DNA of 64,000 nucleotides. Source: Paeniglutamicibacter gangotriensis Lz1y. GTDB lineage: Bacteria > Actinomycetota > Actinomycetes > Actinomycetales > Micrococcaceae. The position numbers were made by a program, and so were the translations under genes. Each line of letters opens with the position of its first letter. Position 1 is the stretch's first letter. Shown piece by piece: positions 6,492-52,437 of this stretch. Location of the stretch: NCBI RefSeq assembly GCF_000348945.1, contig NZ_AOCK01000001.1, positions 1 through 64,000 on the forward strand, read 5' to 3'. Under the pieces are notes generated by a model. That model made no database searches and was not told the origin of the DNA. It saw only the letters and a list, made by a program, of their open reading frames with translations.

Positions 6492-7409
6492 TTAGTGTGC
6501 CGGGACGCTGGTTGCGGACAAGGCGGTGGCGACCTTGACGGCGTCCAGATTGCCCGGGACGTCGTGGACGCGCACGCCCCAGGCGCCGTTGGCTGCGACC
6601 AGTGCACTGGTCGCCGCGGTGGCGGCATCGCGGGCGCCCGGCGCCGCCGGCTTCCCATCCACCGTCAACAAGGCGCCGAGGAAGCGTTTGCGGCTGGTGC
6701 CCACCAGCACGCGGTGGCCCAGGGCGGTGAAGCGGTCCAGGGCCCGCAGCAGCTCCCAGTTGTGCTCGTGGTCCTTGGCGAAGCCGAGTCCCGGATCCAG
6801 GATCAGCTGTTCGGGGGCCACACCCGCGGCGACGAAGGTGTCGCGCAGCTTCAGCATCTCGGTGAGCACCTCGGCCACGACGTCGGTGTAGTTTGCCTCG
6901 GTGGTCATCGAGGCGGCGTCCCCGCGGCGGTGCATCAGCACGTACGGGGCGCCGCTTTGGGCGATCAGCGCAGGCATGTCCGGCTCGTGGGTCAGGCCCG
7001 AGACATCGTTGATGATGTGGGCGCCGGCCGCCAGCGCGGCCCGGGCGGTGGAGGTGTGCATGGTGTCCACCGAGATGATGGCCCCGGCCTTGGCCAGCGC
7101 GGTGATCACCGGCAGGATGCGTTCCTGTTCCACGGCCGGGTCCACCGGTTCGGCGCCTGGACGGGTGGATTCCCCGCCGACGTCGATGATGTCGGCCCCG
7201 CCGTAGTGCATGCGCAGCCCGTGGCTGATGGCCTCGTCGGTGGTGGCGTACTTCCCGCCGTCGGAAAAGGAATCCTCGGTGATGTTCAGGATGCCCATGA
7301 CCAGGGTGCGGCCGGTGGGCAGGTCCGCCAGGGTGCGGGCGATGGATTTCTTGATGACCGGCAGCGGGCTGGTGGCCGGCCCGGTTCCGGGGATTGCTCC
7401 AAGCGACAT
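6492..7409 (-). CDS. folP: Dihydropteroate synthase
   Basis: TIM-barrel enzyme condensing hydroxymethyl-dihydropterin pyrophosphate with p-aminobenzoate; the sulfonamide target. 305 aa from the ATG at 7409. Both pterin-binding signatures are present: MGILNITEDSFSDGGKY near residue 30 and GADIIDVGGESTRPGAEPVD about 40 residues later. VLVGTSRKRFLG near residue 250 supplies the Ser-Arg-Lys loop. Starts 11 bases after the folE stop. LNITEDSFSDGG has Glu where many orthologues have Pro (LNVTPDSFSDGG), a mild variation. Confidence 0.95.
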   Translation of the reverse strand: MSLGAIPGTGPATSPLPVIKKSIARTLADLPTGRTLVMGILNITEDSFSDGGKYATTDEAISHGLRMHYGGADIIDVGGESTRPGAEPVDPAVEQERILPVITALAKAGAIISVDTMHTSTARAALAAGAHIINDVSGLTHEPDMPALIAQSGAPYVLMHRRGDAASMTTEANYTDVVAEVLTEMLKLRDTFVAAGVAPEQLILDPGLGFAKDHEHNWELLRALDRFTALGHRVLVGTSRKRFLGALLTVDGKPAAPGARDAATAATSALVAANGAWGVRVHDVPGNLDAVKVATALSATSVPAH

Positions 7410-27979: not shown

Positions 27980-28510
27980 TCAGTAGTAGATGGCGCTGCT
28001 GGCGAACAAACCGACAGTGACCAGACCGCCGACCAGCAACAAAAACAGCAGCCCTAGATAACCGGTGATCAGGCCACCAATCGCCACACCACGCATGTGC
28101 GGCTCACGTCGCAGGGCCATATGCCCGCAAATGATCGCCACGATCTCGGGGACCAGCAGTAACCCCAAGCTAAGCAGGCCGACGATCCCGGAAACCAGGG
28201 AGACGATGGCCAGCACTCCCGAGGGTCGTTGGGTCTGGGCCGGGTAACCCGGCTGCTGATACTGCTGCGGATAGCCATGCTGCGGGCCCTCGTGGTTCCA
28301 CGCATCTGGGCCGCCTCCAGGTCCCCGAGGCGCGCTCGGGTAGCCGGAACCGTGTGGGGCACCGCCGATCGGCGGTGCGTCCAGCGGCATGTCCAGATAC
28401 GGGTTGCGCGATGCGCCCGGGTGTGGGTTCTGCGACCAGCGCGGGTCATGCGGATCGTTAAACGACGGATCCACTGTGGACTCACGCGCTCCGTCTTTGT
28501 CCTTGGCCAT
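27980..28510 (-). CDS. DUF4190 domain membrane protein
   Basis: 176 aa. A long hydrophilic N-terminus rich in Pro, Gly, Gln and Tyr (about 90 residues; repeats such as QQYQQPGYPAQ) is followed by two to three membrane segments. VLAIVSLVSGIVGLLSLGLL then CGHMALRREPHMRGVAIGG is the DUF4190 signature. Such proteins are common in actinobacteria and of unknown function. Confidence 0.85.
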   Translation of the reverse strand: MAKDKDGARESTVDPSFNDPHDPRWSQNPHPGASRNPYLDMPLDAPPIGGAPHGSGYPSAPRGPGGGPDAWNHEGPQHGYPQQYQQPGYPAQTQRPSGVLAIVSLVSGIVGLLSLGLLLVPEIVAIICGHMALRREPHMRGVAIGGLITGYLGLLFLLLVGGLVTVGLFASSAIYY

Positions 28511-51259: not shown

Positions 51260-52021
51260 TCAGTTCTTGCGACCCCGGGAGGCCGGCTTCGCACCGCGCT
51301 TGGCGCCTGGTTTGGCACCGCGGGCCGCCGACTTCTTCTTTGACTTGGCCGTCTTCGCCGCTTTGGCAGCTTCGCCGGCGCTGGTTTGGCGCTGTTTGCG
51401 GGCTATGACTGCCTGTTCCTGCTGGCGTTGGGCCACCGAGGCTTGGCGGGATGAATTTTCCTTCCGCCCGCGGACGACCCCGATGAATTCCTCGATGAGT
51501 GGGTCGTCCTCTTCGTCCCCCACCGGGGCCAGCCAGGCAATGCCGATGCTGGTGGTGGGGAGGCCGGAAAGTTCCTGGTGCACCACGTCCTTGCGGTGGT
51601 GCAGGCGGGCGACTGCCAGTGGCAGCACCAGCAACCCCGCACCGGAGGCACACACCTCCATGGCCATGGCGGTCCCGCCGGAAGATTCGGGATAGTCCGC
51701 GAGGTCTAGGAAATTTTCCTCGGACAGGTCCTCAAGCGGAACGGGCCCGTCGTACAGCTCAATCTCGTGGTCCTTGGCCGCACAGACGACAAGGGACTCG
51801 TCGTAGAGCGGGATGACGTGTATTTCGGAAGTTTTCGGGGAGCTGCCGGTAGCAAAACGAACAAAGACGACGTCACTGTGTCCAGCGTTCAGACGCGCCA
51901 GAATCGTCTCCCCGTCGTAGCGCAGGGCCTGCAGCGGGCTTTGTGGATACCGTTCGTTCCACCTGGTCAGCCATTTGCCGGGCGTGACACCCGGTACATA
52001 GGCGATTTTTAGTCCGTTCAC
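51260..52021 (-). CDS. LysR-type substrate-binding-domain protein lacking HTH, with basic tail
   Basis: 253 aa from GTG 52021. It opens directly with a LysR effector-domain strand (LKIAYVPGVTPGKWL) and has the typical ARLNAGHSDVVFVR and GGTAMAMEVCASGAGLLVLP blocks. The N-terminal winged helix-turn-helix of LysR regulators is absent, and upstream sequence does not encode one. Residues about 210-253 are a Lys/Ala/Arg/Pro-rich tail (KAAKAAKTAKSKKKSAARG...) resembling histone H1-like nucleoid proteins. Cytoplasmic. Divergent from DUF5997, separated by 29 bases. Confidence 0.85.
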   Translation of the reverse strand: MNGLKIAYVPGVTPGKWLTRWNERYPQSPLQALRYDGETILARLNAGHSDVVFVRFATGSSPKTSEIHVIPLYDESLVVCAAKDHEIELYDGPVPLEDLSEENFLDLADYPESSGGTAMAMEVCASGAGLLVLPLAVARLHHRKDVVHQELSGLPTTSIGIAWLAPVGDEEDDPLIEEFIGVVRGRKENSSRQASVAQRQQEQAVIARKQRQTSAGEAAKAAKTAKSKKKSAARGAKPGAKRGAKPASRGRKN

Positions 52022-52025
52022 CACC

Positions 52026-52045
52026 CAAGCGTACCGGTACGCTTG
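52026..52045. promoter_or_regulatory. Perfect 20-bp palindrome with facing -10 boxes between two divergent genes
   Basis: CAAGCGTACCGGTACGCTTG is self-complementary. It contains TACGCT on each strand (plus 52038-52043; minus 52033-52028), ending seven and six bases before the start codons at 52051 and 52021. That is the expected distance for leaderless transcription. No clear -35 boxes are visible. The whole intergenic region is 29 bases, so this is probably both operator and overlapping promoter. Confidence 0.7.
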
Positions 52046-52050
52046 TGCAC

Positions 52051-52437
52051 ATGAGTGAGAAAACCCCACAGAACATGAAGCCGGCGACTGCCGCAAAGAA
52101 ATTGGGCATCTACCTGCCCGCAGCTCCGGCCGAATTCCAGGAGGGATCGGTAACGCGTGCCCAGTTCGACGAGCTCCTGGCCAACCCGCCGCAGTGGCTG
52201 CAAGATTTGCGCGCCAACGGCCCTCATCCGCGCCCGGTAGTTGCCCACAAGCTGAACGTCTCGATCTCCGGTTTGGCGCGCGCCGAAATCACCGAGGCGT
52301 TGACCACCGCACAGATCGAGGCGTTGCTGGCCGATCGTCCGGCATGGTTGCAGGAAGAGCGCGCCTCATTGGCCGCCGTTCGTGCCGAAGACCAGCGAGT
52401 GAGTGAAGCTGCGGCCGCCAAAGGCGACCGCAGCTAA
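52051..52437 (+). CDS. DUF5997 family protein with internal duplication
   Basis: 128 aa, soluble, no membrane segment. Residues 14-59 and 64-109 form two copies of a unit: VTRAQFDELLANPPQWLQDL and LTTAQIEALLADRPAWLQEE are the clearest parts (12 of 22 residues identical over 34-55 against 84-105). Each copy is preceded by a KL motif. The family is typical of actinobacteria and consistently found beside LysR-like genes. Function unknown. ATG 52051 probably leaderless; GTG 52045 is less likely. Confidence 0.82.
   Translation: MSEKTPQNMKPATAAKKLGIYLPAAPAEFQEGSVTRAQFDELLANPPQWLQDLRANGPHPRPVVAHKLNVSISGLARAEITEALTTAQIEALLADRPAWLQEERASLAAVRAEDQRVSEAAAAKGDRS

Follow-up and report, generated by a model that had tools for sequence, protein, structure and literature searches.

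The 29-bp gap between two divergent genes of Paeniglutamicibacter gangotriensis Lz1y holds a 20-bp perfect palindrome that is probably (we would say about 70%) a compact divergent promoter. On this reading, two -10 elements of the housekeeping-sigma type, each with a CGN extension, lie back to back; both would give leaderless mRNAs, and the two would be mutually exclusive. The palindrome is in a window of 64,000 nucleotides, which is the whole stretch of DNA that we analyzed. Comparison with relatives shows where the predicted -10 elements lie and how they are spaced from both start codons; we infer that the promoters are active, which type of sigma factor they use, that they exclude each other, and any role in regulation.

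The gap (52022-52050) runs from the GTG at 52021 on the minus strand to the ATG at 52051 on the plus strand. To the right is a DUF5997 gene (52051..52437, plus strand, 128 amino acids; PF19460, E = 3.7e-51), and to the left is a gene for a protein of 253 amino acids with a LysR substrate-binding domain, no HTH, and a basic C-terminal tail (51260..52021, minus strand; PF03466, E = 1.7e-18). Both genes are predicted to be leaderless. The palindrome, CAAGCGTACCGGTACGCTTG, spans 52026..52045 and reads the same on both strands, exactly as a previous, sequence-only reading of this DNA had claimed. Its 16-bp core, AGCGTACCGGTACGCT (52028-52043), begins and ends with the hexamer TACGCT, once on each strand. 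The copy at 52038..52043 (plus strand) lies 7 nt 5' of the ATG and is the predicted -10 element of the DUF5997 gene; the copy at 52028..52033 (minus strand) lies 6 nt 5' of the GTG and is the predicted -10 element of the LysR-like gene. These positions, which had also been pointed out before, are confirmed from the sequence. Both elements have the extended form CGGTACGCTTG, and the central CG at 52035..52036 is common to the CGN extensions of both. Another earlier observation, that neither gene has a Shine-Dalgarno sequence, held when we inspected the gap: there is no AGGAGG-like stretch 5' of either start.

The choice of start codons is supported by relatives, because they lose the alternatives. 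An alternative GTG at 52024 is gone in 4 of 10 sequences from the genus, and the codon at 52045 is a non-start codon in 6 of the 10. We identified no -35 element for either promoter at the palindrome. For the leaderless promoters of Mycobacterium tuberculosis, excerpts from two studies describe the -35 as not conserved (PMC3898074, PMC3160421).

To see if this arrangement is present in other bacteria, we gathered relatives of DUF5997 from two sources: the contigs of named genomes (the best 80 of 121) and a sampling of genomes from the class, from the same family (f1), and from family f6. With a threshold of E ≤ 0.001, DUF5997 was found in 29/148 genomes from the class, 68/149 from f1, and 75/121 from f6. 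The wide set has 176 distinct loci out of 185 given. We left out L028-L031, which have weak matches to PF19460 and lack the gene pair. A smaller set has 107 rows but 106 loci, as the window is present twice (L001 and L013).

Almost all of the distinct loci (174/176) have a divergent LysR-like gene beside DUF5997; we did not find one at L163 or L205. This links DUF5997, an uncharacterized family, to a partner that is LysR-like and mostly lacks the HTH. The hexamer TANNNT is found 6-7 nt before the DUF5997 start at 173/176 loci and 6-7 nt before the LysR-like start at 160/174. The DUF5997 genes that lack it are at L198, L199, and L206, and the first two of these have TANNNT at 7 nt if another anchor is used. 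The distances are specific. In the 106-locus set, all 106 DUF5997 genes have TANNNT at 6 or 7 nt, while each of the 39 remaining distances in the 0-40 nt range has 0-2 loci, apart from 0 nt and 1 nt, which have 5 each. Of the LysR-like genes, 97/106 have TANNNT at 6 or 7 nt, and no other distance has more than 7. Among the 14 of 174 LysR-like genes without the TANNNT signal, a script found a Shine-Dalgarno-like stretch 5' of a nearby start in 11, and we judged 9 of these to be convincing (L020, L042, L050, L068, L084, L164, L169, L171, and L172).

These results strongly support, by comparison of sequences, the proposal that leaderless transcription is usual for both genes, with the hexamers as their promoters; the two facing -10 boxes of the sequence-only reading have the same strong support. 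The pattern also agrees with published actinobacterial leaderless promoters, in which, in the excerpts of two papers that we rely on, TANNNT lies a few bases 5' of the start codon (PMC3898074, PMC3160421). What sets the window apart from those single promoters is that it has two of them, pointing in opposite directions, and that over 20 bp the two strands have the same sequence.

We also asked how much of this could be expected by chance in the same genome. Using open reading frames of at least 100 amino acids in 464 kb, TANNNT is found 6-7 nt before ATG or GTG 88 times, versus 26-51 times for eight other pairs of distances. We also counted divergent pairs with the signal at 6-7 nt on both sides, requiring frames of at least 100 amino acids and hexamers no more than 120 bp apart; the 464 kb has only 2 such pairs. 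The DUF5997/LysR-like pair is the only one of these with hexamers within 12 bp of each other. What is surprising is the setting of the palindrome, not its length. We found 9 perfect palindromes of at least 20 bp in 464 kb of the contig, where a first-order Markov model predicts 0.9, so a palindrome of this length is unremarkable by itself, and we rejected length as the sole evidence. Three of the nine fall within the window. The particular sequence is unique: at up to 3 mismatches, there is 1 copy in the window (0.00 expected) and no other in the 4.32-Mb genome.

The -10 elements of M. tuberculosis are often preceded by CGN, according to an excerpt of one study (PMC3898074). At the DUF5997/LysR-like locus, CG precedes TANNNT in 104/173 DUF5997 promoters and 98/160 LysR-like promoters, versus 122/1035 plus-strand occurrences of TANNNT in 464 kb of the genome, but the locus counts are inflated by our rule for picking starts, which prefers a G before TANNNT. 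In the genome at large, CGN is hardly more common at the leaderless spacing (20/88 at 6-7 nt versus 42/227 at other distances). The CGN extension is therefore supported at this locus and not genome-wide.

If two facing elements with CGN extensions are packed as tightly as possible without overlap of the hexamers, the result is ANNNTA-NCGN-TANNNT, with one CG for both. This is the arrangement in the window, where 4 bp lie between the hexamers. All 20 loci with the 4-bp spacing have CCGN between the hexamers, and 8 of these loci are from family f6. Mirrored promoters tend to yield symmetry, and the palindrome of the genus is perfect because the -10 letters of the two strands coincide there.

Outside the genus, the spacing varies. 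It is 33 bp in most Streptomyces, 30 bp in Actinomadura, and takes other values elsewhere. (In the Streptomyces loci L070 and L086, the gap between the promoters has grown by short CGGTCGTGGTCAGCGG-like repeats, and the hexamers are 137 and 332 bp apart.) At 8 loci, the two hexamers have one TA in common (a spacing of -2), and the predicted transcription starts are 23-25 bp apart. These loci are from Sinomonas and a relative from the same family, a member of the Microbacteriaceae, and genus g84. We placed the spacings on a quick tree of 145 of the 174 rows, after thinning the rows with Streptomyces in their titles to one in five and dropping rows of 150 amino acids or less; the root is the midpoint, and 46 of the 142 inner branches are left open. 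On this tree, six changes are needed among the labels 4, -2, and other, and the 4-bp spacing appears in three places: in the genus, in a clade of seven rows from f6, and in L133, which is on a long branch.

In contrast to the promoters, the palindrome is confined to the genus. Each of the 15 genomes of the genus has one exact match to the 16-bp core, always between the two genes, while none of 280 other genomes of the family has it. Within the genus, the core is invariant in 10/10 sequences, even at the N positions of the two hexamers; in DUF5997, by comparison, 34 of the 43 fourfold sites vary. In 12 of the 15 genomes, the symmetry stops at 16 bp. It is longer in the other three: the window has 20 bp, L039 has 24 bp, and L211 has 28 bp, the last with outer arms that differ in sequence and yet are again symmetric. 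L211 (as L233 in the tree) splits off before the 14 other members of the genus; those 14 group with full support, and the grouping of L211 with them against the outgroup has support of 93/88. Even where the spacing is the same, at the 8 loci from f6, there is no palindrome. By its distribution, the palindrome is younger than the promoters. The sequence-only reading had suggested looking in relatives with the same gene pair for the palindrome and for its distance to both start codons. The outcome of this check is mixed. What is kept very widely is the -10 elements and their 6-7 nt distances to both starts; the palindrome itself is not conserved beyond the genus.

If the palindrome is a compact divergent promoter, then RNA polymerase would bind to it in either direction. 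The two elements, one on each strand, would face away from each other and overlap in the central CCGG, and polymerase would begin a leaderless mRNA at the start codon. The rightward mRNA would encode DUF5997 and the leftward mRNA would encode the HTH-less LysR-like protein. Because just 30 bp separate the predicted transcription starts, a polymerase on one promoter should sit over the other as well, and the two complexes should be mutually exclusive. Also, as the two sites do not differ at any of the 20 bp, any bias in direction must come from the flanks or from an activator. In the bidirectional promoters of E. coli, exclusion is described, in the excerpt that we draw on, as being important when one direction is strongly activated and not at the basal level (PMC12825309).

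The closest known systems are the bidirectional promoters of Warman, Grainger and colleagues, in which, as excerpted, the -10 is shared and the starts are mostly 18, 10, or 23 bp apart (PMC12825309). As in those promoters, the -10 elements are on both strands within a pseudo-symmetric sequence, which here is a perfect palindrome. The differences are that the hexamers are separate, with 4 bp between them and only the CG of the extension in common; that the spacing of the predicted starts, 30 bp, is outside of the 10, 18, and 23 bp classes; and that both mRNAs are predicted to be leaderless. The relatives that share a TA are close to the 23-bp class, as it is given in that excerpt (PMC12825309). 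We class the locus with the known bidirectional promoters, as a compact variant whose activity is inferred. More tentatively, we speculate that separate lineages of actinomycetes have evolved an RNA polymerase toggle in this gap, by sharing either the CG (+4) or the TA (-2), so that polymerase must choose a direction. In the genus, where at least 16 bp read the same in either direction, that choice would be set only by the flanks or by an activator.

The most serious alternative, which we consider plausible but would not bet on, is that the compact palindrome is a by-product that itself has no function: in the ancestor of the genus, a short deletion or an inverted duplication joined two existing -10 elements, each of which has been kept for its own gene. 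This explanation agrees with a compact divergent promoter about the elements and differs only as to whether their compactness matters. Zafaria (L041), which belongs to the sister lineage, reads CCCAGCTTA at the promoter of the LysR-like gene and CTACCGGTACGCTTG at that of DUF5997, with the hexamers 40 bp apart, and one deletion and one substitution would suffice to turn its sequence into that of the genus. An inverted duplication is an alternative origin, one that would explain the longer palindromes too; the 28-bp palindrome of L211, the first-branching member, would fit a decayed inverted duplication. Also, as described above, 20-bp palindromes are not rare in this genome. On the other hand, the 4-bp spacing at three places in the tree, always with CCGN, hints at a favored geometry, although the tree was built quickly and L133, one of the three, sits on a long branch.

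It is also conceivable, though we think it unlikely, that the palindrome is an operator over both promoters. A dimeric repressor, either DUF5997 or a regulator from elsewhere, would shut off both genes, and the symmetry would have been selected for binding. The core is symmetric and invariant across the genus, even at positions that TANNNT leaves free, and the symmetry of 20, 24, or 28 bp in the window, L039, and L211 is more than two -10 elements require. However, symmetry alone does not prove an operator, because two identical facing -10 elements form a palindrome by themselves. The symmetry ends at 16 bp in most of the genus, other genomes of the family lack the core, and relatives retain both promoters without any palindrome. 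None of the 15 genomes of the genus has a second exact copy of the core, and the sole copy with 1 mismatch (in G399) lies inside an open reading frame. We found no regulon of the palindrome in these genomes and rejected that idea. The sequence-only reading had taken one symmetric site to be both promoters and an operator; conservation of the -10 elements favors the first part, while the single copy of the core and the relatives without the palindrome count against the second. Use of the palindrome by a protein other than polymerase has little support; nothing that we found here shows it.

The proteins themselves do not make a strong case for an operator, as we found no match to a DNA-binding domain in either one. 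DUF5997 has a confidently predicted fold (pLDDT of 88.7) with short helices, and it arose by an internal tandem duplication: in an alignment of the family (A1), the two halves match at 97% probability (E = 3.3e-11; 52051-52437 in the window), while 20 column-shuffled alignments all gave 1.6% or less. The repeat unit is about 45 residues and ends near PPxWL. We read the duplicated short helices, in the predicted model, as HTH-like, which would suit a repressor. However, searching by sequence for relatives with solved structures found none at E ≤ 1, and the fold search found no match at E ≤ 0.001; the best fold match, to MerR, is weak and not significant (E = 1.3, probability 0.16). Weak relatives that cover half of the DUF5997 profile are found elsewhere in the Micrococcaceae and in other genomes (L028, L031). 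Our literature search, at the level of titles and abstracts, found nothing that points to the DUF5997/LysR-like gap; among the papers searched, DUF5997 itself turned up in one, in a row of a table.

In a classic LysR-type regulator, the gene with the effector domain is divergent from its target gene. The LysR-like protein of the window resembles these regulators in its effector-binding domain (PF03466) and its divergent neighbor, and its fold matches are to the effector domains of LysR proteins such as OxyR, CatM, and BenM. Unlike them, it lacks the N-terminal DNA-binding domain. A Pfam scan of the protein found no match to HTH_1 (PF00126), and its NCBIfam LysR matches are below the cut-off and cover the effector part only. 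The HTH cannot fit upstream, because the first start codon in the open frame is just 25 codons further upstream, which is too few for the domain. At 8 loci in family f6, tblastn found a full LysR HTH at the same position, and Pfam confirmed HTH_1 in both of the HTH-bearing relatives that we scanned (L024 and L026), so the gene pair has seen either loss or gain of this domain. Control of the divergent gene by the LysR-like protein itself, exerted from the gap in the manner of classic LysR-type regulators, would fit the divergent arrangement and the HTH-bearing relatives, but it is very improbable for the protein in the window, and we ruled out self-regulation by way of its own HTH. In the family alignment (A2), VRGR...S.R is invariant after the effector domain; the basic C-terminal tail is predicted with low confidence.

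If the compact divergent promoter is active as predicted, nature would have provided a test case in which the promoter core is the same in both directions. Such a case would separate the determinants of direction, such as upstream contacts, the discriminator, and the start codon, from the -10 element itself, and it would test whether competition for polymerase balances two protein products. More generally, when a perfect palindrome lies between divergent genes in actinobacteria, it is not necessarily an operator.

The same contig has other palindromes. The window includes two more perfect palindromes of 20 bp, at 6595-6614 and 28359-28378. Further along the contig (C1), TGTTTCACGTGAAACA, which we take to be a parS site, occurs five times, at about 90-96 kb (L113). 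One of these copies is within a 28-bp palindrome at 92589, and there is a perfect palindrome of 46 bp at 222282.
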